Assembly: GCF_034092395.1 (NCBI RefSeq)
Contig: NZ_CP139301.1
Span: forward strand, 744,001-808,000
Length of the DNA: 64,000 nucleotides
Origin: Prochlorococcus sp. MIT 1307
GTDB lineage: Bacteria > Cyanobacteriota > Cyanobacteriia > PCC-6307 > Cyanobiaceae
Direction of reading: 5' to 3'
Positions 19,968 through 38,730 of this stretch are shown piece after piece (the stretch's first letter is position 1; each line of letters starts with the position of its first letter). The position numbers and the translations under genes are program-made. The notes beneath the pieces are model-generated. The model saw nothing but the letters and a program-made list of their open reading frames with translations. It was not told where the DNA came from and ran no database searches.

Positions 19968-19998
19968 GATTTTTAAAAAGGCAAGGCGCAGTCGACCG

Positions 19999-20006
19999 AC
20001 ACTACA
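19999..20006 (-). promoter_or_regulatory. Conserved ACACTACA element upstream of pcb copy 1
   Basis: ACACTACA (minus strand TGTAGTGT) lies 32 nt upstream of the ATG. The same octamer occurs at 32-37 nt before four other pcb genes. The hexamer TAGTGT fits a TAnnnT -10 box; a very short 5'-UTR would follow. Confidence 0.6.
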
Positions 20007-20117
20007 ATGAAATGGAGCGCTGCGGCCAAAGCTTTTTAGTATCCGTAAAGGTATGCGGCATAAGGCTATATATACCTTCAAATAAGAGTTTTCCTTCTTG
20101 TTGCAATTGAACCAGTC

Positions 20118-20213
20118 ATGGCTTCAATTATTCCTTTGAGTGACTGGGATCAGAAGGAATGGTTAGCCTATTTGCGCAGACATGAAGTGTTTTTTTTAAG
20201 TATGAATAAATAG
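20118..20213 (+). CDS. Possible 31-aa micro-ORF
   Basis: ATG at 20118 encodes MASIIPLSDWDQKEWLAYLRR followed by a short hydrophobic end through a run of eight or more Ts. The start looks protein-like. The frame may be a remnant cut short at the T run. Low confidence. Confidence 0.25.
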   Translation: MASIIPLSDWDQKEWLAYLRRHEVFFLSMNK

Positions 20214-20246
20214 ATGCTTTAGAAGTTTCTGAAAGTTAAAAAAAAA

Positions 20247-20267
20247 GCCCCGTCTGAAAGACGAGGC
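20247..20267 (-). terminator. Terminator after pcb copy 2
   Basis: The hairpin is GCCCCGTC / GACGAGGC with loop TGAAA. On the minus strand it is followed by a T run (the A run at 20238-20246). It lies 58 nt past the stop codon. Confidence 0.85.
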
Positions 20268-20324
20268 TTTGATGACTTTAGAAAGTGAGACTCTTTTTAC
20301 TAGCCAATGGAGAATCTCAAATCT

Positions 20325-21413
20325 TCAGCTATCAATGGTAATGAGGTCTGATTTCTTCTGATTCCCAATAGCCCCAGGAACCTTCTTAAAGTCAAAGCCC
20401 AAGGCACGGAGTGCATGGAAGAAATGACCTTGTAGATAAAAGAAGCCTAGGTAATAATGAGAGTTGGACAAAGCAGCACGTGTACTGTGACCAAAGAAAG
20501 CTGTGCTTTCAGATAGATCTCCAGTATCTAGCCAATAAGGTCCAACATTAAATTGGAATTGCAATGGTTCCCCATACCATTCGATTGGATAAACAGTCGT
20601 GTTTGTTGCAGCCCAGAAAGCAGCAACAATTGCCATCCAGCCAATACCAGCTAGTGACCATGAGAGAACTGCCTCAGCCGAAAGAAGTTCAGCACCTTTA
20701 AATTTGCTGAACACACCAAGACGTTTGTTTTCCCAAGGAGTTGAACCAGCAATAATGTGGAAGGCACCACCAGTAATTTCAGCGAAACCTAAGAATGCAT
20801 GGCCTCCCATGACATCCTCAAGGCTATCAATTTGAATAAAATCAAACTGACGTTGCCATATCATTGACAAATCAAGGTTGTAATTAACCTGACGTACTGC
20901 TGAAACAGCTGGGTCATAAATTCCGTGGATTCTGGCCCATTCAACAAACCAGACACAGGCGACACCAAAGAAGAGTAAATGGTGGCCAAGAATGAAAGTC
21001 TGATTATCAGGATTTTTCCATTCCAGCTTGAACTTTCTGGCTTGTATTACTGGACTGTCCTGAATATCCTCTTCAAAAAGAACAGCATGCAATAGAGCCC
21101 CACCTCCATAAACCATGGAGAAAACGAGATGAAGTATGGCGATTGATGCAACACCAACCCCTGTCCATACTCCAGCCTCATCAAACCCAATACCAATAGA
21201 GGCTAAATGAGCAAGAAATAGCGAGCTCTGATGCCCCATAGGCACTGAGGGGTCATAGCGAGCAAACTCCCAAAGGGTGCTCCCACCAGCCGCTAGGCAA
21301 ATCAATCCAGTGTGTCCTACATGAGAGGAGATGAATCGGCCTGAGCGGTTGGTGACCACAGAATTACCAGCCCACCACCCATAGGTGACATCTGGATTTC
21401 CATAGGTCTGCAT
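20325..21413 (-). CDS. pcb: Pcb antenna protein, copy 2
   Basis: A 362-residue Pcb starting MQTYGNPDVTYGWWAGN, with the short lumenal loop (EEDIQDSPVIQARKFKLEW) and the standard VNYNLDLSMIWQRQFDF. A unique insert, AGSTPWENKRLGVFSKFKG, replaces the usual TKQIGEYTKFKG in the loop before TM5. The C-terminal extension GAIGNQKKSDLITIDS is also its own. Chlorophyll-binding His residues in HVGHTGL, GHHLLFF, GHAFLGF and GHFFHALRALGF are kept. It has its own leader and terminator. Confidence 0.95.
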   Translation of the reverse strand: MQTYGNPDVTYGWWAGNSVVTNRSGRFISSHVGHTGLICLAAGGSTLWEFARYDPSVPMGHQSSLFLAHLASIGIGFDEAGVWTGVGVASIAILHLVFSMVYGGGALLHAVLFEEDIQDSPVIQARKFKLEWKNPDNQTFILGHHLLFFGVACVWFVEWARIHGIYDPAVSAVRQVNYNLDLSMIWQRQFDFIQIDSLEDVMGGHAFLGFAEITGGAFHIIAGSTPWENKRLGVFSKFKGAELLSAEAVLSWSLAGIGWMAIVAAFWAATNTTVYPIEWYGEPLQFQFNVGPYWLDTGDLSESTAFFGHSTRAALSNSHYYLGFFYLQGHFFHALRALGFDFKKVPGAIGNQKKSDLITIDS

Positions 21414-21446
21414 AATTAAGAGTCAAAATTAATCAATACGCTACGA

Positions 21447-21532
21447 ACACTACAATCTGCTCAATTCATATGCGCGGAATAGTTAAAGGTCTTGATTTAT
21501 TGAATTGGTTATTTTCTTCAAAATCAGAAAAA
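21447..21532 (-). promoter_or_regulatory. pcb leader block upstream of copy 2
   Basis: It contains ACACTACA at 21447-21454 (34 nt before the ATG), then AATTCATATGCGCGGAATAG and AGGTCTTGATTTATTGAATT, shared nearly base for base with the leaders of copies 3, 4 and 5. Promoter function is inferred from conservation and fixed spacing. Confidence 0.7.
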
Positions 21533-21798
21533 TCGAGGTCTTTTGGAAGAGCTGCTTTCTGCCTAGAGGTGTGAAGCAAAAGGCTTCACACCATGGAAAA
21601 AGACTGCGGCGTAATGGATTTAGTCTCATTCGCCATTGCTTCTATATGAATTGAGGTTTGTAAAGCAATCGCAAAATCTTTATTGCAGCTTCTTCTTGAG
21701 AAACTTCGACAATTCTGTTTTTTTTAATTGATCGAGCATGAAAGTCCTCTCAAAGCATCCATTCAACATGCTTGATTGATTGATCGAGTAAAAGCATT

Positions 21799-21838
21799 GC
21801 AATTAAAAACCCCGCCATTAAGACGGGGTTTTTAATTG
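21799..21838 (-). terminator. Terminator after pcb copy 3
   Basis: A 16-bp palindrome GCAATTAAAAACCCCG with its complement, around a short AT-rich tip, ends 41 nt past the stop codon of copy 3 on the minus strand. A/T runs on both sides allow bidirectional use. Confidence 0.85.
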
Positions 21839-21878
21839 CATCAAGTAGCTCTATGAATGAGTTCCTAAAAGAGGATTC

Positions 21879-22931
21879 TCAATTCTTTAGTGCTGCTGGT
21901 CTTCCATGAGGACCAAATTGAACATCTGAGAGACGCTTGAAGTCAAAGCCCATAGCACGAAGTGCATGGAAAAGGTGACCTTGGATATAGAAGAATCCAA
22001 TGATGTAGTGGAAGTTAGCCAAGTAGCAACGAACAGTGCGAACACCCTCTGGCAAGTCAACAGTGTCGTACCAACCTGGAGCAAGACCAAAATCTAATCT
22101 CAAAGGTTCTCCATACCATTCGACTGGATAGACGGTGGTGTTTGTTGCAGACCAGAAGGCCGCAATAATTGCCATCCAACCAATTCCTGCAAGTGACCAG
22201 GAAAGAATTGCTTCTGCAGAAAGCAAACCAGCACCTTTGAACTTGGTGTATTCACCAATTTGCTTGGTTGCAATGTGGAAAGCACCACCACCTATCTCAA
22301 AGAAAGCCAAAAATGCATGACCTCCCATGACATCTTCAAGGCTGTCAATTTCAATGAAATCAAATTGATGATTCCAGATTTGGGTTAAATCAAGGTTGTA
22401 ATTAACTTGACGAACCGCTCCAATTGCTGGGTCATAGATTCCATGAATCCTGGCCCATTCAACAAACCAGATACAAGCAACACCAAAGAAGATCAAATGG
22501 TGGCCAAGGATGAAAGTCTGATTGTCGGGGTTGTCCCATTCCAATTTGAACTTTTTAGCTTGAATAACGTTGCTTTGTTGGATGTCCGCATCAAACACAA
22601 CAGCGTGGATAAGGCCACCAGCTCCATAGACCATGGAGAGGATCAGATGGAGAATTCCTATTGTGACAACACCAGCTCCTGTCCAGGCTCCAGCTTCGTC
22701 GAATCCAATACCGATAGACGCCAAATGCGAAAGACTTATCGCGGTCTGATGCCCCATTGGCACTGAGGAGTCATAGCGAGCAAGCTCCCAAAGGGTGTTT
22801 GCACCAGCCGCAAAAGCGATCAATCCTGTATGCGCAGCATGCGAGGCAATGAATCGGCCTGAGCGGTTAGTGACCATTGAATTACCAGCCCACCAGCCAT
22901 AGGTGACATCTGGATTTCCATAGGTCTGCAT
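21879..22931 (-). CDS. pcb: Pcb antenna protein, copy 3
   Basis: A 350-residue Pcb with MQTYGNPDVTYGWWAGN, GAWTGAGVVTIGILHLILSMVYGAG, DADIQQSNVIQAKKFKLEW, TKQIGEYTKFKGAGLL and GHLFHALRAMGFDFKRL. Its N-terminal two-thirds is almost identical to copy 4 at the DNA level (for example 22404-22690 against 23875-24160), which points to recent duplication or gene conversion. The C-terminal third diverges (APGWYDTVDLPEGVRTVRCYL). The usual GHSSR or GHTTR before TM6 is replaced by VRTVR here. Confidence 0.95.
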   Translation of the reverse strand: MQTYGNPDVTYGWWAGNSMVTNRSGRFIASHAAHTGLIAFAAGANTLWELARYDSSVPMGHQTAISLSHLASIGIGFDEAGAWTGAGVVTIGILHLILSMVYGAGGLIHAVVFDADIQQSNVIQAKKFKLEWDNPDNQTFILGHHLIFFGVACIWFVEWARIHGIYDPAIGAVRQVNYNLDLTQIWNHQFDFIEIDSLEDVMGGHAFLAFFEIGGGAFHIATKQIGEYTKFKGAGLLSAEAILSWSLAGIGWMAIIAAFWSATNTTVYPVEWYGEPLRLDFGLAPGWYDTVDLPEGVRTVRCYLANFHYIIGFFYIQGHLFHALRAMGFDFKRLSDVQFGPHGRPAALKN

Positions 22932-23041
22932 GATTTAAGAGTGCAGGCGTTAATACCTGCGCACACTACAATCTGGTCAATTCATATGCGCGGAATAGTT
23001 AAAGGTCTTGATTTATTGAATTGGTTATTTTCTTCAAATCA
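22932..23041 (-). promoter_or_regulatory. pcb leader block upstream of copy 3
   Basis: About 110 bp almost identical to 25931-26041. It includes a small hairpin GCAGG-CGTTAATA-CCTGC just before the start codon, ACACTACA at 22963-22970, and the AATTCATATGCGCGGAATAG and AGGTCTTGATTTATTGAATT blocks. Confidence 0.75.
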
Positions 23042-23317
23042 CAAAAAAACTTTTTTTTTGGGGCCAAATCCAAAATCCTCTATCCAAAAGGGAAATACCT
23101 GTAGTGCTTCAAAATGACTGCAGTGCAATCAATTTCAGGCCTTCATCACATTTTTTTCTTATAAGCCAAAAAAAATGATATAAAAATCTTAATTTCAAGC
23201 ACTTCTAGCCTCAATTTCAATAATTGGTTTTAATTCAAAGCCCAGCCAAGAATTGCGTGAGCAAATTCAAGTGGAATTTTGAACAAATCGTTTAAAAAGC
23301 CTAGTTGCAAAAAAAAA

Positions 23318-23338
23318 GCCCCGTCATATTGACGAGGC
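23318..23338 (-). terminator. Terminator after pcb copy 4
   Basis: Hairpin GCCCCGTC / GACGAGGC with loop ATATT and A/T runs on both sides. The stem is the same as the one after copy 2, indicating that the unit was copied together with its terminator. Confidence 0.85.
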
Positions 23339-23364
23339 TTTTTTGAACTAAGCAAGAATTAAAC

Positions 23365-24402
23365 TCAAGAAGCTACAGCAAATCTATTGCTAATTTCCTT
23401 GAAATTAAAGCCCATAGAGCGCAATGCATGCCATAGATGTCCTTGGATTGCCCAGAAACCAACTATGTAGTGGAAGTTGACCAAATAACAACGTGAAGAA
23501 TGTCCAAAAGGTGCGATACCAGTTAGGTCAACAGAGTCAACCCAACCTGGAGCAATAACAAACTTTTGAATTAATGGTTCCCCATACCACTCAATTGGAT
23601 AAACAGTGGTGTTTTGTGCTGCCCAGAAAGCAACCACAATTGCCATCCAACCAATTCCTGCAAGTGACCAGGAAAGAATTGCTTCTGCAGAAAGCAAACC
23701 AGCACCTTTGAACTTTGTGTATTCACCAATTTGTTTAGTGCAAATGTGGAAAACACCGCCTCCCATCTCAAAGAATGCCAAGAAGGCATGACCCCCCATA
23801 ACATCCTCAAGGCTGTCAATGGAAAGGAAATCAAACTGATGCCCCCATATCGCAGTTAAATCGAGGTTGTAATTAACTTGACGAACCGCTCCAATTGCTG
23901 GGTCATAGATTCCATGAATCCTGGCCCATTCAACAAACCAGATACAAGCAACACCAAAGAAGAGCAAATGGTGACCAAGGATGAAAGTCTGATTATCTGG
24001 ATTGTCCCATTCCAATTTGAACTTTTTAGCTTGAATAACGTTGCTTTGTTGGATGTCCCCATCAAACACAACAGCGTGCATAAGGCCACCAGCTCCATAG
24101 ACCATGGAGAGGATCAGATGGAGAATTCCTATTGTGACAACACCAGCTCCTGTCCAGGCTCCAGCTTCGTCGAATCCAATACCGATAGACGCCAAATGCG
24201 GGAGATGAATCATTGCTTGATGCCCCATATTCACTGAGGGGTCATAGCGAGCAAACTCCCAAAGGGTGTTTGCACCAGCCGCAAAAGCGATCAATCCTGT
24301 ATGCGCAGCATGCGAGGCAATGAATCGGCCTGAACGGTTGGTGACCATTGAGTTACCAGCCCACCACCCATAGGTGACAGATGGATTTCCATAGGTCTGC
24401 AT
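23365..24402 (-). CDS. pcb: Pcb antenna protein, copy 4
   Basis: A 345-residue Pcb, the shortest copy. It shares with copy 3 the stretch from SMVTNRSGRFIASHAAHTGL to the middle of the protein. Distinct parts are VNMGHQAMIHLPHLASIGIG after TM1, AIWGHQFDFLSIDSLEDVMGG, and a C-terminal third (VIAPGWVDSVDLTGIAPFGHSSRCYLV) that is closer to copies 1 and 6. It ends GFNFKEISNRFAVAS. The mosaic pattern of similarity suggests recombination between copies. Confidence 0.95.
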   Translation of the reverse strand: MQTYGNPSVTYGWWAGNSMVTNRSGRFIASHAAHTGLIAFAAGANTLWEFARYDPSVNMGHQAMIHLPHLASIGIGFDEAGAWTGAGVVTIGILHLILSMVYGAGGLMHAVVFDGDIQQSNVIQAKKFKLEWDNPDNQTFILGHHLLFFGVACIWFVEWARIHGIYDPAIGAVRQVNYNLDLTAIWGHQFDFLSIDSLEDVMGGHAFLAFFEMGGGVFHICTKQIGEYTKFKGAGLLSAEAILSWSLAGIGWMAIVVAFWAAQNTTVYPIEWYGEPLIQKFVIAPGWVDSVDLTGIAPFGHSSRCYLVNFHYIVGFWAIQGHLWHALRSMGFNFKEISNRFAVAS

Positions 24403-24433
24403 AATTAAGAGTAAAAAGCTATCAATCGGGTGG

Positions 24434-24500
24434 AACCTTACAAGAGGCTCAATTCATATGCTTGGAATAGTTAAAGGTCTTGATTTATTGAATTACTTAT
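24434..24500 (-). promoter_or_regulatory. pcb leader block upstream of copy 4 (variant)
   Basis: It keeps AATTCATATG and GGAATAGTTAAAGGTCTTG, but the ACACTACA octamer is changed to ACCTTACA at 24435-24442, at the usual distance. The base change in the putative -10 region might alter promoter strength (inference). Confidence 0.6.
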
Positions 24501-24760
24501 CTCCTTGTACCTTTTCTAAAAAATGAGTTGATTCTGATCAAAACCGGACAACCTCCTGTTCCTGTAGCACTTAAAAAACAAGATCAGCATAAACAAAAAT
24601 TATTTGGCAACTTTTTCCAAAATCATTGGTCAAAATCTTATTTTCTAATAGCTGACCTGGTTCGGAAGGATTGCTGGTCCCAAATAAATAAACATATTCT
24701 TCCAAATCAGAATTCATTTAGAGAAAGATCAATTGAAGCCTCAAATAGAAAAAATAAAAA

Positions 24761-24785
24761 AAGCCTCGCCTAAATGGCGAGGCTT
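24761..24785 (-). terminator. Terminator after pcb copy 5
   Basis: A perfect 10-bp stem AAGCCTCGCC / GGCGAGGCTT with loop TAAAT. The A run at 24750-24762 gives a T run on the minus strand. Confidence 0.9.
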
Positions 24786-24859
24786 GGAATAAAGGTTGGA
24801 AGGGTCGAACTACAAAGTGGAGAAATTAAACCTCTTCACAAACCATTCAAATAAAAAGA

Positions 24860-25930
24860 TCAAGCTGCAGCTTCACCTTTCCTTTTCACTTCAGCCACAT
24901 TTGCCAATCCTTCAGGAATTCTCTTGAAGTCAAAGCCCATTGCGCGAAGTGCATGCCATAGATGTCCTTGTAGGTTAAAGAATCCAATTCCATAGTGAAC
25001 ATTCACTAAAGCATCGCGTGTTGTATGGCCAAAGAAAGCTGTGCAATCAGAAGTATCAGCAGTATCTATCCAATAAGGAGCAACACTAAACTGAATTTGA
25101 AGTGGTTCACCGAACCATTCAATTGGATAAACAGTCGTGTTTGTTGCAGCCCAGAAAGCAGCAACAATTGCCATCCAGCCAATACCGGCTAATGACCAAG
25201 AAAGAATTGCTTCAGCGGAAAGAACCTTAGATCCCTTGAATTCGGTGTATTCACCAATTTGCTTGGTTGCAATGTGAAAAGCACCACCACCTATCTCAAA
25301 GAAAGCCAAAAATGCATGACCTCCCATGACATCTTCAAGATTGTCGATAGCAATGAAATCAAATTGATGATTCCAGATTTGGGTTAAATCAAGGTTGTAA
25401 TTAACTTGACGAACCGCTCCAATTGCTGGGTCATAGATTCCATGAATCCTGGCCCATTCAACAAACCAGATACAAGCAACACCAAAGAAGATCAAATGGT
25501 GACCAAGGATGAAAGTCTGATTGTCGGGGTTGTCCCATTCCAATTTGAACTTTCTGGCCTGAATAACTTCACTTTGCTGCATGTCCTCATCGAAAAGGAC
25601 CGCATGCAATAGACCACCAGCTGCATAGACCATGGAAAGGATCAAGTGCAGGATTGCGATCGTGACAACGCCAGCACCTGTCCAGGCTCCAGCTTCGTCA
25701 AACCCAATACCGATAGTTGCCAGATGGGAGAGGAAAAGCGAACTTTGATGCCCCATAGAAATTGAGGGATCAAACTTTGCAAGCTCAACAAGAGTCGTTG
25801 CACCAGCCGCAAAAGCGATCATTCCTGTATGAGCAGCATGCGCGGCAATGAATCGGCCTGAGCGGTTAGTGACCATTGAGTTACCAGCCCAGAACCCGTA
25901 GGTCACATCTGGATTTCCATAGGTCTGCAT
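24860..25930 (-). CDS. pcb: Pcb antenna protein, copy 5
   Basis: A 356-residue Pcb starting MQTYGNPDVTYGFWAGN (Phe for the usual Trp). It has GATTLVELAKFDPSISMGHQ in the first loop, EDMQQSEVIQARKFKLEW, TKQIGEYTEFKGSKVLSAEA, and APYWIDTADTSDCTAFFGHTTRDAL close to copy 2. The tail NVAEVKRKGEAAA is its own. The promoter region is nearly identical to that of copy 3 although the C-terminal third resembles copy 2, another sign of reshuffling. Confidence 0.95.
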   Translation of the reverse strand: MQTYGNPDVTYGFWAGNSMVTNRSGRFIAAHAAHTGMIAFAAGATTLVELAKFDPSISMGHQSSLFLSHLATIGIGFDEAGAWTGAGVVTIAILHLILSMVYAAGGLLHAVLFDEDMQQSEVIQARKFKLEWDNPDNQTFILGHHLIFFGVACIWFVEWARIHGIYDPAIGAVRQVNYNLDLTQIWNHQFDFIAIDNLEDVMGGHAFLAFFEIGGGAFHIATKQIGEYTEFKGSKVLSAEAILSWSLAGIGWMAIVAAFWAATNTTVYPIEWFGEPLQIQFSVAPYWIDTADTSDCTAFFGHTTRDALVNVHYGIGFFNLQGHLWHALRAMGFDFKRIPEGLANVAEVKRKGEAAA

Positions 25931-26041
25931 GATTTAAGAGTGCAGGCGTTAATACCTGCGCACACTACAATCTGGTGAATTCATATGTGCGGAATAGTTA
26001 GAGGTCTTGATTTATTGAATTGGTTATTTTCTTCAAATCAC
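25931..26041 (-). promoter_or_regulatory. pcb leader block upstream of copy 5
   Basis: Nearly identical to 22932-23041; only a handful of substitutions are visible (for example GTGCGG for GCGCGG, GTTAGAGG for GTTAAAGG). ACACTACA lies at 25962-25969, 32 nt before the ATG. Confidence 0.75.
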
Positions 26042-26239
26042 AAAAAACGAGGTCTACTTCCCAATTCCTGCAGTCAATTTGAGCAGTGCGCATAAAAACA
26101 ATTCTGAATCAGAAAATCGAATGCTGAAATTCTTCTGCAAGCCGTTTTGATGCTCAAGATTGTATGACTTCACTTGGATCTCAGCAGAGGAAGGCCTTAG
26201 CAAGGCTGAGTTAAATCTACAGAAGATTCTGTTTTAATC

Positions 26240-26292
26240 AGTTTTCAAGATGCAACAGAGAACCCCGTCCTGTTGCGCTTTTCGTTTATAAG
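26240..26292 (+). promoter_or_regulatory. Promoter region of MIDLTH copy 3
   Basis: AGTTTTCAAGATGCAACAGA at 26240-26259 and TATAAG at 26287-26292 match the copy-1 upstream region with exactly the same spacing to the ATG. The GCAACAG here can pair with CTGTTGC at 26273-26279. Confidence 0.7.
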
Positions 26293-26338
26293 TACCTCAC
26301 TATCACAAAAATGGGCTATCAAACGCCCCCCTTTATTG

Positions 26339-26542
26339 ATGATTGATTTAACCCACATCATTGATTTCGCTAGTCAACTACCACACCCATCTGATATTGG
26401 ATTAATCAAGCCCTCGGGGGGCTTGAATATCGCAGCAGCCTTATGCGGCTTAGGTGCTGTTTTTGGTGCTAGCCAATTCCTCTATTACTCAGATGATTCA
26501 AAAAGATGGGATCCCTGGGCTAAACCTGAAAATTTCGAATAG
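26339..26542 (+). CDS. MIDLTH-family small membrane protein, copy 3
   Basis: The 67-residue protein has MIDLTHIIDFASQLPHPSD, IGLIKPSGGL, one TM (IAAALCGLGAVFGASQFLYY) and a tail ending RWDPWAKPENFE. It is transcribed against the pcb genes and sits between pcb copies 5 and 6. The ATG matches the start shared with the two paralogs 9 kb away. The TM and tail differ strongly from copies 1 and 2, so only the N-terminal part is under common constraint. Confidence 0.85.
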   Translation: MIDLTHIIDFASQLPHPSDIGLIKPSGGLNIAAALCGLGAVFGASQFLYYSDDSKRWDPWAKPENFE

Positions 26543-26571
26543 AGCTCAATCAATAGTTCTAACTTTTACCT

Positions 26572-26610
26572 AAAAAAGAGGACAAGCTTATAGCTTGTCC
26601 TCTTTTTTTT
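26572..26610 (+). terminator. Strong terminator after MIDLTH copy 3
   Basis: AGAGGACAAGC / GCTTGTCCTCT hairpin with loop TTATA and eight Ts after it. Textbook intrinsic terminator 30 nt past the stop. Confidence 0.93.
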
Positions 26611-26993
26611 CAGTTCCTCTAACTTCTAAAATTCTACTCACAAATTTTTCAAGCAAAATTTAAATTAAGGCCTCGCATTTCATCAGATCACATGAAATCT
26701 AAAAATAGAAATAGAGAAGCCCTCTCTCTTATATTGAACTTTAGAAATTAAATTATTCGTCATCAAATAGCCAAGTTGCAATTTTCTCAATGAATAAACC
26801 AATCATTAATTTCTTTATGGGAGTTGAATCAAAGGTTCACCTTCTTTACCTAAAATCGACACAAGAAGAACAACGAGTTTAGATTAAAAAAAAATGATTA
26901 GTCATATTAAAATCCAAGTAGTTTATTTTAAATAAATATTACCCCCCCTCTCCCCAAGAGTTTTCTCAATTATTTAGATGCTTAATTATAGGC
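26611..26993. other. Intergenic region between convergent MIDLTH copy 3 and pcb copy 6
   Basis: AT-rich, no gene seen. It contains a C-rich patch CCCCCCTCTCCCC near 26941 that stands out from its surroundings. Confidence 0.35.
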
Positions 26994-27028
26994 AAAAAAA
27001 AACCTTGCCATTACAGCAAGGTTTTTTT
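26994..27028 (-). terminator. Terminator after pcb copy 6
   Basis: AACCTTGC / GCAAGGTT stem with loop CATTACA between a long A run and seven Ts; usable in both directions. Confidence 0.88.
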
Positions 27029-27076
27029 AATTTAACTCACTAAGACTATCTTTGAATCTTGGTGAAGCAAAAATAA

Positions 27077-28165
27077 TCAGTCAGCCAATTGATTCACTCT
27101 AATTGAATCAAGGTTTGAGACAGCATTGGTAATACGCTTAAAGTCAAAACCGGCTGCTCTCAAAGCATGGAATAAGTGACCTTGGATATTAAAGAATCCA
27201 ATGATGTAATGGAAGTTGCAGAGCCATGCCCTAGATGAATGACCAAGAGGAGCGCCATCAATAGGTGCTGCGTCATACCAACCTGGAGCTAAAACAAACT
27301 TCAATTCAACTGGATCACCAAAGAATTCAACTGGGTAAACAGTAGTATTAGTTGCGCACCAGAAGGCAGCAATAATTGCCATCCAACCGATACCAGCTAA
27401 TGACCAGGAAAGAATTGCTTCGGCAGAAAGGAATTTAGATCCTTTGAACTCGGTGTAATCACCAATTTGCTTGGTGAAAATGTGGAAAATACCACCACCT
27501 ATCTCAAAGAAAGCCAAGAAAGCATGGCCACCCATGACATCTTCAAGACTATCTATTGCAATAAAATCAAACTGGTGGTTCCAAATCTGAGTCAAATCAA
27601 GGTTGTAATTAACTTGACGTATGGCGCCAATTGCTGGGTCGTAGATTCCATGGATCCTGGCCCATTCAACAAACCAAACACATGCAACTCCCATGAAAAC
27701 CAAATGGTGTCCAAGAATGAAGGTTTGATTGTCGGGGTTATCCCATTCAAGCTTGAATCGTTTCGCTTGACGATGTTCAGGGCGATCATCCGCAAACAAA
27801 CCTGAACTGTTCTGGGTATCTTCACTGAAAACCAAGGAGTGCAAGAGAGCAGCCCCTCCATAAACCATAGAACAGATCAAGTGGAAAATACCTATAAAGG
27901 CAATACCTGCACCTGTCCAGACTCCAGCCTCGTCAAATCCAAGACCAATAGTTGCCAAATGGTTAATACTCATCATGCCCTGATGCCCCATTGGCACTGA
28001 AGGGTCATACCGAGCAAGTTCCCAAAGGGTGTTTGCACCAGCAGTGAAGGCAATCAATCCTGTGTGACCAATATGAGAGCCAATAAATCGGCTTGACTTG
28101 TTGGTTACTACAGCATTACCAACCCACCACCCGTAGGTGACGTCTGGGTTTCCGTAGGTCTGCAT
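27077..28165 (-). CDS. pcb: Pcb antenna protein, copy 6
   Basis: A 362-residue Pcb starting MQTYGNPDVTYGWWVGN. It shares with copy 1 the long lumenal loop EDTQNSSGLFADDRPEHRQAKR and VGNAVVTNKSSRFIGSH, but has the common VNYNLDLTQIWNHQFDF in the middle. The TKQIGDYTEFKGSKFL loop is like copy 5. It ends NAVSNLDSIRVNQLAD. A 12-residue in-frame extension upstream is not used, because all paralogs start at MQTYG. The gene lacks the AATTCATATG leader of copies 2-5 and may be regulated separately. Confidence 0.95.
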   Translation of the reverse strand: MQTYGNPDVTYGWWVGNAVVTNKSSRFIGSHIGHTGLIAFTAGANTLWELARYDPSVPMGHQGMMSINHLATIGLGFDEAGVWTGAGIAFIGIFHLICSMVYGGAALLHSLVFSEDTQNSSGLFADDRPEHRQAKRFKLEWDNPDNQTFILGHHLVFMGVACVWFVEWARIHGIYDPAIGAIRQVNYNLDLTQIWNHQFDFIAIDSLEDVMGGHAFLAFFEIGGGIFHIFTKQIGDYTEFKGSKFLSAEAILSWSLAGIGWMAIIAAFWCATNTTVYPVEFFGDPVELKFVLAPGWYDAAPIDGAPLGHSSRAWLCNFHYIIGFFNIQGHLFHALRAAGFDFKRITNAVSNLDSIRVNQLAD

Positions 28166-28653
28166 AATTTTTAGGAGTGCAAAACGGTAATTTCGCTGCA
28201 TACACTACATTCAATTGGGCCATGTAAGACAAAGCAGTTCAGCATCTGTAAGGGTCTGCCGCAAAGGCATTTGTCTTGGCATTGATTAATGCATGTTGAA
28301 TTGAACTAAATTACTAAAGTGGAGCCGCTACCAAATCAATACCACCAAGGGCTTTGGAGGATTCAGCTCAAGTTCTTACAGTCATAATGCTTGTAAAGCT
28401 CTTCCGCAGGCAAAAGAAGAGATAGTTATAAATTCAAAGGCCTTAACCACCTCAAGCCCCATGGCTTGAGGTTCGTCAAAATCAAGATGAATTTGATCGT
28501 CTGTCTATTTAGATATCTAAGTTGGTGCTCAAAAAAATCGTTTAAATAGATTTTCGCCGTCTTGCTATCCACTGAGAAAATTTTCCAGGAGATCAAAAGC
28601 TCTTAACAAGACCCTTTCAAAGACAAAGGGAAACTAAAGATTGATTTTTTAGT
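28166..28653. other. Upstream region of pcb copy 6
   Basis: It contains ACACTACA at 28202-28209, 37 nt before the ATG, followed by sequence unlike the other pcb leaders. CCTCAAGCCCCATGGCTTGAGG at 28449-28470 is a strong short hairpin without a clear T run. No gene seen. Confidence 0.5.
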
Positions 28654-29036: not shown

Positions 29037-29076
29037 ATCAATAGCTCTCATTAGTCTTTCATTGAGAGCTATTGAT
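29037..29076. repeat. 14-bp inverted repeat at the end of the fusion gene
   Basis: ATCAATAGCTCTCA (29037-29050) is complementary to 29063-29076 and overlaps the last codons of the fusion gene. No T run follows, so terminator function is uncertain. Confidence 0.5.
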
Positions 29077-31885
29077 AGGTCCTAAATTCCTTTCGCAAGT
29101 TCTCGTCAATTGACAATGCTGCCCTTCTTCCATCTTTCACAGCTTGCATAAAGTTGCCAGGACCGCGAATCATTTGACCTCCAGCAAAAATATTTTTCAT
29201 CCCTTTTATTAGCATTGTTTTCATATCAATCCAGAATTCTGGCTTAAGGTCGTTAGCTATACCCAAATGCTCTTGAAGTTGTGAATCCAAAATCTTCGGC
29301 TCTGTGTCAGCAAAAACAACCTCTTTAGAGGCATTTAATATACTATTAAGTTCCACTTGATTGGATTTCAAAAGTTCTAGACCAAATTGCTTCATACTTA
29401 AAAGATATTTCAAGTTGTTTTGACTTCCTTTTTCATCATAAACTACAAATATCTTCCCAGCACCTCTAAAAATCAGTGACTCTGCAATATCAATAGCAAG
29501 GAATGTTGTTCCTATAATTGTATAGGTAGAGCCTATTACTTGGCTTGGTTCACTAACAAAATTCTTAAGAAATTGGCAACCATGTACTGAATTCTTATAC
29601 TTCGATATGCCCTTATCTGGTTTGGCTGTAATATCTAACCCACAAGCGATAAAAATAGAATCATATTTAACTTGCAAGTCCTCTAGAGTCAAATTTTGCC
29701 CCAACTTATGTTCATAATGAATTCGAATAGAAGGAAGAATTAAGTTTGATATTTCCCGATTTAAAACTTCTTTAGGCAGCCGGGTAGAATAATTAACAGC
29801 CCTCAAAATCCCGCCAACTTCTCTGCTCTTCTCAAAGATATCTACTTTATAACCTAAACGTGCCAAATAATGAGCACATGTTAAACCAGATGGTCCAGCG
29901 CCAACAATACCTACCTTTTGATTATTAGAAGGAGCCACCTCTGGAGAATAATATGGTACTTTCTCGCAAATAAATCTATTTAATGAGTGAATTTTTGTAG
30001 GAGCTTCTGGACAAAGAGTCCTAGAACAATGTTCACTACAAAAGTCTTCTGAAATAGAAAGGTATCCTTGAGTCTCTGAAAATGGATTTAATTCTCGAAG
30101 AGCCTGAGATGCACCTATCCAATTTGAAGCTTCTACTAACCGAGCAATACGACCATTTTCTGAATTGTCTGGATAAGTATTAATGCAACGAAGATTAAAG
30201 CAGCTGTTAGGGTAGTCTGGATGTAGTTTAATTTCCTTACTTGATGGGAAATTATATTCATTATCTTGGTTATAAATAGAAGGCTTTGATTTATAATGAA
30301 CAAAACTTTCTGGGTATTTCTTTAATGGAACATATTCCTTTTTCCCTAAGTCCTGTAAAATTGCATTAACTGCACTAATAGCTGAAACCGTCACTGAAAC
30401 TACGCCAATACCTTGACTAGTAGAGTCTCCAACACAATAAAGTCCCTTCCAATCACTTCTTGCTGCAAGTCTACTCATATAACTTTGCTTCATATTAACT
30501 TGCGGCCCACCAATAGCTCCAGCATTCTTTAAGGTGTAACGTTGAATTGTTTGAGGCGTAGCAATCTCTTGAACTAAGATATTCTTTTTAAGTTTTGGGA
30601 AGTAATTTTTGTCTAAATAATCAATAATTTCTGCTGCTTTATCGTTCTTACTATCTCTATAATTTCTATCATGATATCTGTCCTTGCCATCAGTAGGCAA
30701 TGTCTTTTCAGGGGTTTCTTCTGGTAGAAATATACATAAGGAATGAGTTCCAGGAGGAGAAGATAGCGGGTCCAATAAGGATGTAATATATACTGTTAAA
30801 TAACTAGGTTTTCCTTTATATCTATAAGCTAATATTTGTGTAGGCTTACAGTCTAAAGGAATTGCTTCAGACTTTACACCTAAATAAACCCCGAAAATAC
30901 TGTAACTAGGTCTAAATCTTTGTGCCCAATTTCTTTTTCTCACTGGAATATGTTGCTTGTCAATTAACTTTCCATATAAATTCCAAACTGTTGCATTTGA
31001 AACTACGGTTCTTGCATTAATTATAACTCCATTGTCTAATTGACATCCAGTAGCATGATCATTCTCTATTAAAATTTTATTTATTCGATGTCTATAAAGG
31101 ATCTTACCACCATACTTATGTATTGCCTTTTCAAGTTTATTAGCCAGAACCTGAGGAGAGCCATCAGCGTAATAGCACCCACCTGTATATGATTCTACGT
31201 GAATCATAGGTCCCGCAATCGCAGGTGTCTGATCAAGACCACATGTGGTCATATTCTGATTTAAAAGTGTAAATAACTTGAGTATCTGTGGATCTTTTGT
31301 AAAGCGACGAAATAATTGTTCTTGACTAGAAAGAAGATAGCGAAGCAGCCTTACCAAATAGAAAGGACGGGATAACAGTAGTTTCTTACCATGGTCTGGT
31401 GGCGTTTCAGCGGGAGCAAAAAATTGACCTCCATAACTTTCAATTGATTGATGATAAAAAGACTCAAATTCAGTTAATAATGCCTTGATATTTTCTGACT
31501 GATCTGGAAAGCATTCACACAATTCATTCCAAAACTTCTCTCGGTCTGTATACATCGAAACTTTCTTTGTCTTGTCTAGATGTATCGTGAAAGTTTCTTC
31601 CATAGGCACCAGATAAATATCTTCTTGGAGCTCATTCATCACAAACTGATGAGGGTTATATCCTGCCTCACCAAACCCAAAGAATAGTGATGCCCCTACA
31701 TCAAAAGTAAACCCCTTCCGCCTAAAAATACTCGCGCATCCACCTGGTAGATAGTGTTGCTCTACAACTAAAACTTTGAAGCCTCTTTTTGCTAGAAGCG
31801 CTGCAGCAGTTAAGCCACCAATACCTGCACCTACTACCAAAACATCATAGGAGGGCAACAGGAAATCTCTTTCTAGTGCAGGCAT
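29069..31885 (-). CDS. Fusion: carotenoid-isomerase-like flavoprotein + GltD-like oxidoreductase
   Basis: 938 residues in two parts. Residues 1-500 follow the CrtISO/CrtI (phytoene desaturase-like) plan: FAD motif YDVLVVGAGIGGLTAAALLAKRG near 14, GGCASIFRRKGFTFDVGASLFFGFGE, and the C-terminal FAD loop GLYCVGDSTSQGIGVVSVTVSAI. Residues 560-930 resemble glutamate synthase small subunit: a Cys-containing helical segment NPFSETQG with DFCSEHCSRTLCPEA, a second FAD motif KVGIVGAGPSGLTCAHYLARLGY near 655, and AGGQMIRGPGNFMQAVKDGRRAA near 902. The second Rossmann site near 789 reads TIIGTTFLAIDIAES, lacking the usual GxGxxA glycines. An internal electron supply to the first domain is an attractive inference. 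Substrate unknown. Confidence 0.85.
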   Translation of the reverse strand: MPALERDFLLPSYDVLVVGAGIGGLTAAALLAKRGFKVLVVEQHYLPGGCASIFRRKGFTFDVGASLFFGFGEAGYNPHQFVMNELQEDIYLVPMEETFTIHLDKTKKVSMYTDREKFWNELCECFPDQSENIKALLTEFESFYHQSIESYGGQFFAPAETPPDHGKKLLLSRPFYLVRLLRYLLSSQEQLFRRFTKDPQILKLFTLLNQNMTTCGLDQTPAIAGPMIHVESYTGGCYYADGSPQVLANKLEKAIHKYGGKILYRHRINKILIENDHATGCQLDNGVIINARTVVSNATVWNLYGKLIDKQHIPVRKRNWAQRFRPSYSIFGVYLGVKSEAIPLDCKPTQILAYRYKGKPSYLTVYITSLLDPLSSPPGTHSLCIFLPEETPEKTLPTDGKDRYHDRNYRDSKNDKAAEIIDYLDKNYFPKLKKNILVQEIATPQTIQRYTLKNAGAIGGPQVNMKQSYMSRLAARSDWKGLYCVGDSTSQGIGVVSVTVSAISAVNAILQDLGKKEYVPLKKYPESFVHYKSKPSIYNQDNEYNFPSSKEIKLHPDYPNSCFNLRCINTYPDNSENGRIARLVEASNWIGASQALRELNPFSETQGYLSISEDFCSEHCSRTLCPEAPTKIHSLNRFICEKVPYYSPEVAPSNNQKVGIVGAGPSGLTCAHYLARLGYKVDIFEKSREVGGILRAVNYSTRLPKEVLNREISNLILPSIRIHYEHKLGQNLTLEDLQVKYDSIFIACGLDITAKPDKGISKYKNSVHGCQFLKNFVSEPSQVIGSTYTIIGTTFLAIDIAESLIFRGAGKIFVVYDEKGSQNNLKYLLSMKQFGLELLKSNQVELNSILNASKEVVFADTEPKILDSQLQEHLGIANDLKPEFWIDMKTMLIKGMKNIFAGGQMIRGPGNFMQAVKDGRRAALSIDENLRKEFRTYQ

Positions 31886-33415: not shown

Positions 33416-33847
33416 TCACAGCTTTAAAAGCTCATCAAGCTTTACAAGAATTCTTTCTCCTTCCTTTGTTAAATAAGTCTTCTCGAGAATCTCTCCTTTC
33501 ATAACAACTATTTTTACAACCCTAGCCCCCTCAGGAACTTGAGCCGACCAAGTAAATTTCTCGTCAACAGTTCGCTCTTCTACTTCTGCTTCAGAAAATA
33601 TTGAGATTTTTTCATGCGCTTGAAAAATCAAGCCATCTTCCAAAATGGAATCTAATGAAGGCTGTTCGGACTCTTCTTCTTTGATCGGGCTTAAAAGGCT
33701 TTCAGGAATGTGTCTCTTTTGACTCTGAAGCCTAGATACAGCCTTATCTTGAAGGCGATGAAACCTGGATGCAACCTTTTCCTGCAGATAAATGCATTTA
33801 GATAAAGCTCTTTTCTTTTTATCCTTGAGGTATGTTCTTAGACCCAT
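33416..33847 (-). CDS. Hypothetical protein divergent from the PFOR-like gene
   Basis: The 143-residue protein has a basic helical N-terminus (YLKDKKKRALSKCIYLQEKVASRFHRLQDKA), then an acidic linker and a C-terminal small beta domain (FTWSAQVPEGARVVKIVVMKG and LTKEGERILVKLDELLKL). It shares a 160-nt divergent intergenic region with the PFOR-like gene. Function unknown. Confidence 0.65.
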   Translation of the reverse strand: MGLRTYLKDKKKRALSKCIYLQEKVASRFHRLQDKAVSRLQSQKRHIPESLLSPIKEEESEQPSLDSILEDGLIFQAHEKISIFSEAEVEERTVDEKFTWSAQVPEGARVVKIVVMKGEILEKTYLTKEGERILVKLDELLKL

Positions 33848-34008: not shown

Positions 34009-37000
34009 ATGAAACAGCTATCCGTTAACAAAAATGAGACTCCAAAGGGGTTAGTGCCAAACACTCCCAAATACCCTGGTATTCCAGTCACTTGCAATGG
34101 GAACAAACTAGTTACCCAGTGGGTAGAAGTTCGAATTACCGAAGGAGGAGTCTATTACCCAATTACTCCTTCAACAGAAGGTGGCGAAATTTACCAACAG
34201 GCCTTTTCTGAAGGGGTCTTGGATGTCTGGGGTAACCAAAAATTATCTGTAGAGGCTGAAGGTGAGCACGCAGCTCAAGGAGGAGCCATTGCTGTTTCGA
34301 TGACAGGCAAACGTACTGTCAATTTTACATCAGGGCAAGGCATTGTTTATGCGATGGAGCAGTACTACCACGCTCCAGCAAAGTTTTCGACAATGGTCTT
34401 AGAAGTAGGCGCTAGAGCGCTAACAAAGCATGCCCTAAATGTCCATTGTGGGCATGATGACTTCAACGCAGCACTAGATACTGGGTGGACGATGTTGATG
34501 GCTCGAGATGCCCAACAAGCAGCTGACCAAGCGATTATTCTCCGTAAATGCAATGAAATAACCTTAAATCCTGGTATGAATATTCAAGATGGGATGCTAA
34601 CTACCCATTCTGAACGTACATATCGTGCGCCTGAAGCTGATCTATTAAGAGAATACCTAGGCGCCCCTGATGAACAAATAGATACTCCAACCAAAGCGCA
34701 AAAAGAACTATTTGGCCCTCGTCGCAGACGTGTTCCGAAGATGCTGGATTTAAAAAATCCTGTTCTTTTAGGACCTGTTCAAAATCAGGAACACTATATG
34801 AATGGTGTTATTGCTCGTAGAGATAATTTTAATGAGCCTATTCTTAAAGTCCTTAAAGAGTGTTATGAGGAATTTGCACAGTTAACTGGTCGCAAATATG
34901 GGCTTATTCACGAATATAAAACTGAAGATGCAGATACAGTATTTATATCTCTTGGCTCCGCCACAGATAATATCGAAGCAGCATGTGACTATATGCGAAA
35001 AGAACGCAACGCAAAAGTTGGATCTATACACATTAATGTAATTCGCCCATTCCCAGAGGCGGAAGTTATTAATGCTTTAAGAGGTAAAAAAAGAGTTCTG
35101 ATATTAGAGCGCACAGATGAAGGAATGGCTGGAGACAACCCATTAGGTCGCGACATTCGAACAGCTCTTAGCAAAGCTCAAGAATCTGATAGTTATGGGA
35201 GCTATTTACCCGCACTTAAGTACGAAGAGGTTCCACGTATATTTCGTGCAAGTTATGGCTTAGGATCTCGTGATTTTCGCCCTGAACATATCATTGGAGC
35301 TTACGAATATGCTATTGGTGATAATTCTAGAAAAGATGGGAGGAGTGCAAAAGATGGTGAAAACTATTTCACACTTGGTATAAATCATCCTTATAGTGTA
35401 ATTTCTTCAGATACACCCTCTTTACTTCCTAAGGGTGCAATTGCAGTTCGTTTTCACTCAATTGGTGGGTGGGGAATGATAACCACAGGGAAAAATCTTG
35501 GGGAAATTATTGGCAAGTTTGGCCAAATCATATCTAATAGAAAACCAACTTATAACAAGCTTGGACAATTAGAAGAGAAGCTCTTCATTATGGCCAACCC
35601 TAAGTATGGCTCAGAAAAGAAAGGTGCTCCAACTAATTATTTTCTTACTGTTGCATCTAAAAAGATCCAAGTTAACTGCGAGCTTAATCATGTAGATGTT
35701 GTTCTTTGCTGTGATCCAAAAGCCTTTACACATACAAATCCTCTTGAAGGTTTAAAGAAAGGTGGAAGTTTAGTATGGGAATCTAGCGAAAATCCAGATA
35801 GTGCTTGGGAACGAATTCCTTCTAAGCATCGAGATTTTATAAAAAAGAATAAGATTCGTGTGTTTATTCTTCCAGGCTTCTCAATTGCAAGGGAAGCCAC
35901 TAAGCGTGCAGACTTACAACTAAGAATGCAAGGTAATACATTTCTTGGTGCCTTTTTTAAAGTGTCAACTTTCCTCCAAGATCATAATATTAATGAAGAT
36001 GAATATAGAAAGATTGTCCACAACCAATATGAGAAGAAATTTGGTCGGTTTGGATCAGCAGTAGTGGATTCTAATATGAAGGTTATGGATGGAGGTTTCA
36101 ACCGTGTACAGGAAATTAAATATGGTGACATCGAAGATGAAGATACCTCAAGTATGCGTAATCCATTATTAGCCCCTAAATCTGCAGGTTTAATTCAAAT
36201 ACCAGCAACAGCAGGATGTGAAGAGAGTGGTTGTAAAATGTGCTCAACGCCAGAGGGACAGACAAGGTCACCTTTTCAAACAATTAAAAAGTTTGATTCT
36301 GAATTTCGTAATGGATTTGGATACCACCAACCTTCAGGAGCATATGCCAGCCTTTCAGTAATGGCTGCCGCTAGTGGAGCAACACAAAGTAAATATGTGG
36401 CCAGGAGAGAAACACCTGTTTTTATTGCAGAAAACTGTACTCAATGTATGGAATGTATTACTGCTTGTCCTGACACAGCAATGCCAAACTCAGCACAAGA
36501 TATCAGAACAATTCTTTCTACTGCTATCCGCAATTATATTAGCAAAAAGAGCATGGCTGATGCATTACATAAGGAATTACCTCTTTTAGATGAAAATTGT
36601 AGAAAACAAATGAATGAGAATATAGTTAAGAAAATAAAAATGCCATTTAGCAAGATACTTGAGTTGGAACTAAATAAGCTAGATCATATAGATCAGGATG
36701 CACGAAGTGAGCTTCTAATGATCATAAGTAAGTTGCCATTAGCCTATAACAATGTGAATGCAATATATCGAACCTTGGAGAAAAAGAGCCCTGGTCAAGG
36801 AGGTCTTTTCTCTATATTTATTAGCGACCTATGCAAAGGTTGTGGTGAATGTGTGCAGGTATGTGGAGACCACAATGCGTTAAAAATGGAGCAAGAAACA
36901 CCAGGCTTAAATTCAAAATTAAGTACTGCACAATTATTTAGTCGATTGCTACCAGAAACCAATCAAAAATTTCTTGGCTTATATCAAACAGAAAATCCTG

Positions 37001-38730
37001 AAGAAGCTCGCGAATCAATTTTGCGGAATCATTTAATGGTAAGGCGCAACTATGAAGCACTTGTTTCAGGAGATGGTGCTTGTGCGGGTTGTGGAGAAAA
37101 AACTGTTTTAAGAGCAGTTGCTTCTATCACCGAAGCATATATGCGTCCTATTTTTCATAGGAAGGCAAAAAGGTTAAATCAAAAGGCCCAATATTTGAAA
37201 GAAATTGGATTAGACAAGCTTGAGGCCTTTGAATCTAAACATAACGATGAATACAACTGGTTTAAACGTAGTCTTGCCCATATAGTTCTAGGCCTTGGAG
37301 GTGAGAATGAGAACGATACTAATCATCGTTTAAAGAATCATGGCCTAATTAGCAATCAAGCAATGATTGATGCATTAGTTACTGTTATCAAACAAGATGC
37401 TTTTAACCATAGTGATTTACAAGCAATAGATGGGTCCACTGCAAATGGCATGAGCACCATGTATATGGGTGCTCATACGGGCTGCAATACCGTGTATGGC
37501 TCAACTCCACCATCCAACCCACATCCATATCCTTGGATGAATTCATTATTTCAAGACGGGTCAACTATCAGTTGGCTCATCGGAGAGGCAGCTATTTTAA
37601 ATCACTCTCGTCGCTCTGTAACCCCAGAAAGATTAGCCACTGCTCTATTAGAGAGGGAAACTGGTTTAAGTAGTGAGCAGGAATACTTCGAATTAACCCA
37701 TCTCGACGATTCTTTAATGACGGATCTGGAAATTAGTGAATTACCAAAGGTATGGGCTATAGGAGGAGATGGAGCAATGGGTGATATTGGCTTCCAAAAT
37801 GTCTCAAAGGTTGTCTTACAAAATCGCCCAAATGTGAATTTACTAATGCTAGATACTCAAGTTTATTCAAATACTGGTGGGCAGAATTCTGACAGTTCAA
37901 ACATGCTTGGTGGATATGATATGAATCAATTTGGGGTCGCTACACAAGGGAAGTTAAATGAAAAGAAAAGTGTGGCAGAAGCATTTACTTCTGGACACGG
38001 ATCGCCTTTTGTGGCTCAAGTTTCTATGGCAAACTCGGCTAAAATGTATAAAGCAATGATTGATGGACTTGAGTATCGTGGTACTTCATTTTTTCAATGC
38101 TTTACATCTTGCCAACCTGAACATGGTGTAGGTGATAATATGAGTGCCAACCAAGCTCGGATGGTTCGTGATAGTCGAGGCATGCCAGAGTTCATTTATA
38201 ATCCACGGAATGGAGAAATACTACAAGAAAGTTTCAATTTAAAGGCTAATCCATCACTAAAAAAAGATTGGTTTGAGACCAAATTTCCTGTAAGTAGAGA
38301 AAGCTATAACATGACAGTCGCACATTGGGCTATAACTGAAGCACGCTTCAGGCGGCACATAAACGAGATATCAGATATTGAAGCAAATGAATTAATCCAT
38401 ATCGAAAATATACTTACATTAGTTACGCAGCAGGACGTTATATATAGAAGAGTATTTGATCAAAAGCATCATGCCTATATACCTGACTGGGGTGTTTATT
38501 TCAAAGCAGAGGTCAAAGGCATTCTGAAATACTTTTCTGTTAGTCGTCAAATGGTTCTCTTTCATATAGAACGACGTAAATCTTGGCGAATGTTGCAGAG
38601 CCGAGCTGGAATCACGAATGAGGACTATGCAGCACAAAAGCTATTACTAGAAAAGTTAAAAGATGGAGAGATCTCTCGTGATGATTGTATAAAAGAAGGC
38701 AAAGAAATACTGAAAAGTCTAATTAAATGA
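34009..38730 (+). CDS. nifJ: Pyruvate:ferredoxin (2-oxoacid) oxidoreductase-like, giant form
   Basis: 1573 residues against about 1200 for usual NifJ. The N-terminal part has GGVYYPITPSTEGGE and AEGEHAAQGGAIAVSMTGKRTVNF (2-oxoacid and TPP pyrimidine domain). An 8Fe ferredoxin-type domain is split: CTQCMECITAC at Cys810-820 and CKGCGECVQVC at Cys942-952, separated by about 120 residues. The proximal cluster is CAGCGEKT at Cys1025-1028 with later Cys in HTGCNTVYG and FQCFTSC. The TPP-Mg site is GGDGAMGDIG at about 1252 with DTQVYSNTGGQ. An extra Cys group CEESGCKMC lies at 737-745. Expected reaction: pyruvate + CoA to acetyl-CoA + CO2 with reduced ferredoxin. The true 2-oxoacid is not proven. 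Confidence 0.88.
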   Translation: MKQLSVNKNETPKGLVPNTPKYPGIPVTCNGNKLVTQWVEVRITEGGVYYPITPSTEGGEIYQQAFSEGVLDVWGNQKLSVEAEGEHAAQGGAIAVSMTGKRTVNFTSGQGIVYAMEQYYHAPAKFSTMVLEVGARALTKHALNVHCGHDDFNAALDTGWTMLMARDAQQAADQAIILRKCNEITLNPGMNIQDGMLTTHSERTYRAPEADLLREYLGAPDEQIDTPTKAQKELFGPRRRRVPKMLDLKNPVLLGPVQNQEHYMNGVIARRDNFNEPILKVLKECYEEFAQLTGRKYGLIHEYKTEDADTVFISLGSATDNIEAACDYMRKERNAKVGSIHINVIRPFPEAEVINALRGKKRVLILERTDEGMAGDNPLGRDIRTALSKAQESDSYGSYLPALKYEEVPRIFRASYGLGSRDFRPEHIIGAYEYAIGDNSRKDGRSAKDGENYFTLGINHPYSVISSDTPSLLPKGAIAVRFHSIGGWGMITTGKNLGEIIGKFGQIISNRKPTYNKLGQLEEKLFIMANPKYGSEKKGAPTNYFLTVASKKIQVNCELNHVDVVLCCDPKAFTHTNPLEGLKKGGSLVWESSENPDSAWERIPSKHRDFIKKNKIRVFILPGFSIAREATKRADLQLRMQGNTFLGAFFKVSTFLQDHNINEDEYRKIVHNQYEKKFGRFGSAVVDSNMKVMDGGFNRVQEIKYGDIEDEDTSSMRNPLLAPKSAGLIQIPATAGCEESGCKMCSTPEGQTRSPFQTIKKFDSEFRNGFGYHQPSGAYASLSVMAAASGATQSKYVARRETPVFIAENCTQCMECITACPDTAMPNSAQDIRTILSTAIRNYISKKSMADALHKELPLLDENCRKQMNENIVKKIKMPFSKILELELNKLDHIDQDARSELLMIISKLPLAYNNVNAIYRTLEKKSPGQGGLFSIFISDLCKGCGECVQVCGDHNALKMEQETPGLNSKLSTAQLFSRLLPETNQKFLGLYQTENPEEARESILRNHLMVRRNYEALVSGDGACAGCGEKTVLRAVASITEAYMRPIFHRKAKRLNQKAQYLKEIGLDKLEAFESKHNDEYNWFKRSLAHIVLGLGGENENDTNHRLKNHGLISNQAMIDALVTVIKQDAFNHSDLQAIDGSTANGMSTMYMGAHTGCNTVYGSTPPSNPHPYPWMNSLFQDGSTISWLIGEAAILNHSRRSVTPERLATALLERETGLSSEQEYFELTHLDDSLMTDLEISELPKVWAIGGDGAMGDIGFQNVSKVVLQNRPNVNLLMLDTQVYSNTGGQNSDSSNMLGGYDMNQFGVATQGKLNEKKSVAEAFTSGHGSPFVAQVSMANSAKMYKAMIDGLEYRGTSFFQCFTSCQPEHGVGDNMSANQARMVRDSRGMPEFIYNPRNGEILQESFNLKANPSLKKDWFETKFPVSRESYNMTVAHWAITEARFRRHINEISDIEANELIHIENILTLVTQQDVIYRRVFDQKHHAYIPDWGVYFKAEVKGILKYFSVSRQMVLFHIERRKSWRMLQSRAGITNEDYAAQKLLLEKLKDGEISRDDCIKEGKEILKSLIK

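Follow-up and report, generated by a model that had tools for sequence, protein, structure and literature searches.

A single gene of Prochlorococcus MIT1307 joins a flavoprotein half of the carotenoid isomerase (CrtISO) superfamily to a GltD-type half with iron-sulfur and FAD motifs. The fusion is real, and it bears out the earlier note on this DNA, which had proposed CrtISO-like and GltD-like parts in one chain: one open frame of 938 codons matches both kinds of profile. Each half is of a known kind, and the novelty lies in the combination, which is undescribed as far as the family libraries and the literature were searched, in keeping with the statement in that note that no enzyme with this architecture was known to its author. 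Literature searches on the gene in MIT9313, on its clade distribution and on unusual Prochlorococcus carotenoids returned nothing bearing on the fusion.

Architecture of the fusion gene

The window is the whole stretch of 64,000 nucleotides that was analyzed, taken from a genome whose sequence is one contig of 2,032,419 bases; Prochlorococcus MIT1307xe belongs to the LLVII grade (PMC11559063). The fusion gene occupies 29069 to 31885 of the window on the minus strand, as do all its parts given below, and runs from an ATG start through 938 codons to its stop with no internal stop codon, encoding 938 aa. Residues 11 to 516 (30338 to 31855) form the FAD half of the CrtISO/CrtD superfamily, matching TIGR02730 (CrtISO) over residues 13 to 514 with 294.3 bits (E = 1.7 × 10−87) and TIGR02733 (CrtD) over residues 14 to 511 with 226.1 bits. 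A linker of low conservation in the ortholog alignment, residues 517 to 558 (30212 to 30337), leads to the C-half, in which residues 566 to 819 match PRK12771 (E = 8.6 × 10−56) and other GltD-type models match as well.

The C-half has the domain order of the GltD, NfnB and PRK12771 modules, with an Fe-S domain followed by an FAD Rossmann part, a second Rossmann part and a C-terminal FAD segment. The Fe-S domain, of Fer4_20 type, is residues 559 to 650 (29936 to 30211) and contains invariant cysteines at 562, 567, 616, 620, 625 and 640; the Fer4_20 score over residues 561 to 642 is 22.8 bits, slightly below the Pfam cutoff of 25.8. The FAD Rossmann part is residues 655 to 785 (29531 to 29923), with a Pyr_redox_2 match that begins at residue 657, and the former NAD(P)H-binding part is residues 786 to 860 (29306 to 29530). 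The C-terminal FAD segment, residues 894 to 938 (29072 to 29206), keeps an FAGGD motif in four copies, its Asp being Gln in MIT1307 (FAGGQ) and Gly in AG-363-C20.

Orthologs and distribution

Uninterrupted, full-length orthologs at 60 to 65% identity are found in MIT0701, AG-363-C20, AG-412-I05 and contig CAJWKH010000063.1. The sixth copy compared, in a genome that we take to be MIT9313, has a one-base deletion near residue 310, which is within the CrtISO half and away from the domain joint. Five genomes or contigs have the frame at full length, which rules out an assembly artifact or a split gene, and because the fusion is common to independent isolates, single cells and a metagenome-assembled genome (MAG) contig, neither chance nor assembly can account for it. 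The four other full-length copies likewise dispose of the concern, voiced in the earlier note, that the two parts might be separate genes in all relatives.

The fusion was found in 5 of 400 Cyanobiaceae genomes scanned, and among the samples searched it was seen only in LLIV and LLVII Prochlorococcus. In the genus of MIT0701 and MIT9313 it is present in three of five genomes, the two noncarriers being incomplete assemblies, and in the genus of MIT1307 itself in two of eight, several of which are incomplete. Outside Prochlorococcus, none was found among 390 genomes of the class, 349 genomes from the phylum to which a Pelagibacteraceae genome belongs (a scan without a positive control), 198 Bacteroidota or 101 Bacillota, at strict E-value cutoffs under which a negative does not prove absence. 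No relative turned up in viral contigs, and the six matches listed among phage records were each to the GltD half alone.

Two candidates for further fusions were rejected. The Bacteroidota protein L022 is a NuoF-GltD fusion, in which a GltD module is likewise joined to another redox enzyme, but the partner is NuoF rather than a CrtISO-type protein and the NAD(P)H motif of its GltD module is kept. The Bacillota protein L066 is a CrtISO-superfamily member of 702 aa whose N-terminal extension of about 220 residues is unrelated and hydrophobic-looking. Contig CAJWKH010000063.1 is filed under a Gammaproteobacteria MAG, but is probably a mis-binned Prochlorococcus contig; besides the fusion it carries a protein with DUF4135, a domain of LanM-type lanthipeptide synthetases.

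The CrtISO-superfamily half

The N-half shares with CrtISO its fold, its FAD motifs and an alignment over the full length at about 30 to 34% identity, and with CrtD the superfamily and the FAD domain, but it falls short of the equivalog cutoffs of both models, 586.9 bits for TIGR02730 and 549.7 bits for TIGR02733. Elsewhere in the MIT1307 genome there are a true CrtISO scoring 876 bits (cutoff 587) and a separate CrtD scoring 757 bits (cutoff 550), which makes another role for the fusion probable. In a tree of 49 relatives that included five fusion N-domains, the latter group together with support, set apart by a stem of 2.36 changes per column, and fall outside both the cyanobacterial CrtISO clade (100/100) and the clade of Bacteroidota CrtISO-like proteins. 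The tree places them beside CrtD with weak support and subject to long-branch effects, which leaves their deeper position unsure. The Bacteroidota proteins stand alone, occur in about one-quarter of the sampled genomes of that phylum, and share about 33% identity with the N-half (L058 to L065); one of them, L058, scores 554 bits to TIGR02730, slightly under the cutoff of 587.

Among 55 columns conserved across CrtISO, the Bacteroidota proteins and CrtD, the fusions retain 41 and have changed 14, including D95M, D206T, A217L, H349T, W401K and P491Q. The FAD motifs are conserved at G19, G21, G23, G24, G48, G49, G486 and D487. An intact FAD site among other conserved positions that have been remodeled suggests a different substrate. 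With the changed columns, the separate clade and an added module of about 400 aa, the fusion differs from CrtISO, and by sequence we regard the N-half as a separate branch that is neither CrtISO nor CrtD. The description of this half as CrtISO-type thus holds at the level of the superfamily, but not for CrtISO itself.

The nearest solved structures by sequence are 4rep and 4dgk for the N-half, and NfnA, other Nfn-type subunits, DPD and GltD for the C-half. The AlphaFold model of the N-half matches the gamma-carotene desaturase 4rep and the CRTI 4dgk. The C-half was poorly confident in the full-length model and was folded separately; its model matches NfnA, GltD and DPD with Z scores of 23 to 28 (28.0 to NfnA, and 22.9 to 26.7 to GltD chains) and so has the GltD-type fold. 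The alignments behind both models included relatives of the CrtISO and GltD types, and the fold matches are hence not independent of the sequence matches.

The GltD-type half

The C-half shares its fold with the GltD/NfnB/PRK12771 modules (NfnA 9n5u, the GOGAT small chain 2vdc and DPD 1gt8), but is well under the cutoffs of the GltD models, scoring 127.6 bits against 471.75 for TIGR01316, 88.1 against 447.7 for TIGR01317 and 97.3 against 482.95 for TIGR01318. The first FAD motif, GAGxxG, is intact in all six aligned copies. The NAD(P)H motif GGGxxA (GxGxxA) is broken in all six, where the alignment has GTTFLA, GLNSFS, GATYLA and GSTLLS in its place. At the first positions after the next strand, where the relatives mostly have basic residues, the fusions have acidic or neutral ones, and the second Rossmann part is shortened relative to the GltD-type relatives.

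The canonical relatives have cysteines at eight columns, corresponding to residues 559, 562, 567, 571, 606, 610, 616 and 620 of the window protein. All six fusions keep four of these (562, 567, 616 and 620), and AG-363-C20 additionally keeps 559, 571 and 606, for seven of the eight; Cys625 is invariant in the fusions and missing from the relatives. By the example of DPD, residues 559, 562, 567 and 620 would presumably ligate one [4Fe-4S] cluster, and 571, 610 and 616 with a Gln the other. By this analogy the fusions have plausibly kept the first cluster and lost the second, but with only three of the four canonical first-cluster ligands kept in five of the six copies, cluster formation is uncertain. 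Overall, the canonical Fe-S cysteines are down from eight to four, or to seven in AG-363-C20.

The two halves evolve at different rates, with about 40% identity between orthologs in the C-half versus about 80% in the N-half. Pairwise dN/dS, in the pairs where it was estimable and with many synonymous distances saturated, is about 0.05 to 0.11 for the N-half and about 0.13 to 0.38 for the C-half, so that purifying selection acts on both halves, and the C-half is under relaxed but real constraint. Invariant residues make up 38% of the Fe-S domain, 46% of the FAD beta-alpha-beta and 11% of the NAD(P)H segment; the sole segment below the last is residues 861 to 893, the 33 residues that follow it, at 3%. 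Eight of the nine cysteines of the GltD half are invariant in the six copies versus 25% of all residues (Fisher p = 8 × 10−5), a test that overstates the case since cysteines are generally conserved.

Genomic neighborhood

In MIT1307, the fusion gene is flanked on one side by a series of pcb antenna genes and on the other by the gene for a divergent PFOR-like protein of 1573 aa. The series consists of six consecutive genes for Pcb chlorophyll a/b-binding proteins at 18888 to 28201 on the minus strand, with starts at 18888, 20325, 21879, 23365, 24860 and 27077, of which four are confirmed by profile and two were judged from their translations. The neighbors of the LLIV orthologs differ from the LLVII flanks, the adjacency to the PFOR-like gene is found in MIT1307 only, and the AG-363-C20 contig ends at the fusion, so that adjacency to pcb lies outside what that contig shows. 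A conserved operon is not supported, and neighborhoods that differ between LLIV and LLVII indicate no pathway partner.

The PFOR-like protein (34009 to 38730, plus strand) scores 344 bits to TIGR02176, for which the cutoff is 911, and shares about 28% identity with ordinary cyanobacterial PFOR. It has close relatives at 75 to 85% in each of the five genomes from the MIT0701 genus, in AG-363-C20 and in one other genome (G008), and the gene was found in 8 of the 400 Cyanobiaceae, including all five fusion carriers of the scan. The co-occurrence is suggestive, this protein being a possible reducer of ferredoxin, but shared ancestry alone could explain it.

Two other genes of the window were noted. 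One encodes a small protein (33416 to 33847, minus strand). Its C-terminal part is similar to the product of a small gene that lies immediately downstream of the fusion in MIT0701 and CAJWKH and is interrupted by stop codons in MIT9313 and AG-412-I05. The other encodes a B12-binding radical SAM protein (42675 to 44087, plus strand) that is weakly like HpnJ, HpnR and BchE, under all cutoffs.

Proposed function and alternatives

The reading that we favor, tentatively and at somewhat under an even chance, is that of a CrtISO-superfamily polyene enzyme working with reduced FAD, to which the C-half would feed single electrons by way of one Fe-S cluster and an FAD. We infer cofactor binding, cluster formation, electron donor, direction of electron flow, substrate and reaction as follows. 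The protein would be a two-flavin, iron-sulfur enzyme of low-light Prochlorococcus. Its N-half would act on a carotenoid or a similar polyene, one other than prolycopene given that the true CrtISO is encoded separately, and would carry out an isomerization, a saturation or a hydration. The C-half, a modified GltD/NfnB module, would no longer take hydride from NAD(P)H. Single electrons, with reduced ferredoxin as the simplest donor, would instead enter at the one remaining [4Fe-4S]-type site (Cys562, 567 and 620, with 616 or 625), pass to the C-half FAD and keep the N-terminal FAD reduced. A one-electron donor such as ferredoxin is favored because the C-half no longer has the NAD(P)H motif yet retains its FAD motif and part of the Fe-S ligands.

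Characterized relatives suggest why an electron inlet might be fused at this place. CRTISO uses reduced FAD as the working cofactor of a non-redox reaction, and CRTI with reduced FAD acts as an isomerase under anaerobic conditions (PMC3382138), so a built-in inlet would have a use. The diatom CRTISO5 is a fucoxanthin synthase, a CrtISO paralog with a hydration reaction (PMC10396379), and gives a precedent for a CrtISO paralog with a new reaction in an oxygenic phototroph; the likeness is by description, and no GltD-type module is mentioned for CRTISO5 (PMC10396379). A further parallel is found among the structural matches of the C-half, which include the TrxR-like FAD module of HdrA-type proteins (5odc and 6tjr) at 13 to 16% sequence identity. 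HdrA has its FAD connected to Fe-S clusters and not to NAD(P)H, and this wiring is a precedent for the proposed mechanism, although the partner subunits differ from those of the fusion. Counting against the favored reading are the facts that CrtISO itself works without a fused partner, that the first cluster has an incomplete ligand set in five copies, and that the C-half evolves fast and has the Asp of FAGGD replaced in two copies.

Alternatively, the C-half would be a decaying remnant, retained for folding, oligomerization, or docking to a membrane or partner, with the N-half acting alone as a CrtISO-like enzyme and its FAD reduced from the general pool of the cell. The low identity of the C-half between orthologs, the absence of its NAD(P)H motif and of half its Fe-S cysteines, and the scarcity of invariant residues in segment 861 to 893 make this a possibility to be taken seriously, if a doubtful one. 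A pure remnant should have dropped the FAD motif or the cysteines or been trimmed, but the FAD motif, Cys562, 567, 616, 620 and 625 and the length are kept in six of six copies, with dN/dS well below 1. Electrons might also flow outward, from an N-half that is a desaturase like CrtD or CRTI through the C-half FAD and Fe-S site to an acceptor, sparing oxygen. The superfamily includes desaturases that need an acceptor, either oxygen or a quinone (PMC3382138), and the weak, long-branched placement beside CrtD would fit, but CrtISO outscores CrtD as the best-matching profile (294 versus 226 bits) and the context suggests no acceptor; we consider this unlikely. The proposal of the earlier note, a self-sufficient polyene reductase driven by NAD(P)H, has in its favor the GltD-type fold with an FAD site and the fit of a self-contained reductase to a fusion. 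Against it stand the loss of GxGxxA in every copy, the place of that fast-evolving segment among the least conserved, and the replaced basic residues, and going by these features of the alignment it seems quite improbable.

Whatever its reaction, the gene may be dispensable, given the frameshift in MIT9313 and the two of five genomes of its genus, both incomplete, that are without it. We also considered the fusion as a source of the unidentified C40H56O carotenoid of Prochlorococcus, which is unlikely since that carotenoid is present in all four strains tested, one of them a high-light strain (PMC11559063).

A change of electron source seems to be under way in the GltD half, the orthologs standing at different stages with seven or four of the eight canonical Fe-S cysteines. 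We see some prospect, though a rather doubtful one, that the fusion represents a new enzyme class, with a CrtISO-type half and a ferredoxin-driven, NAD(P)H-independent Fe-S/FAD half, carrying out a pigment or lipid modification specific to deep-living, low-light Prochlorococcus. With MIT1307xe described as an isolate and MIT0701 sequenced, pigment tests should be feasible. If ferredoxin is the donor, low-potential electrons would be supplied directly to an enzyme of the carotenoid family, and the fusion would hint at an uncharted step in pigment or lipid metabolism of the low-light clades, which live at the bottom of the sunlit layer of the ocean.
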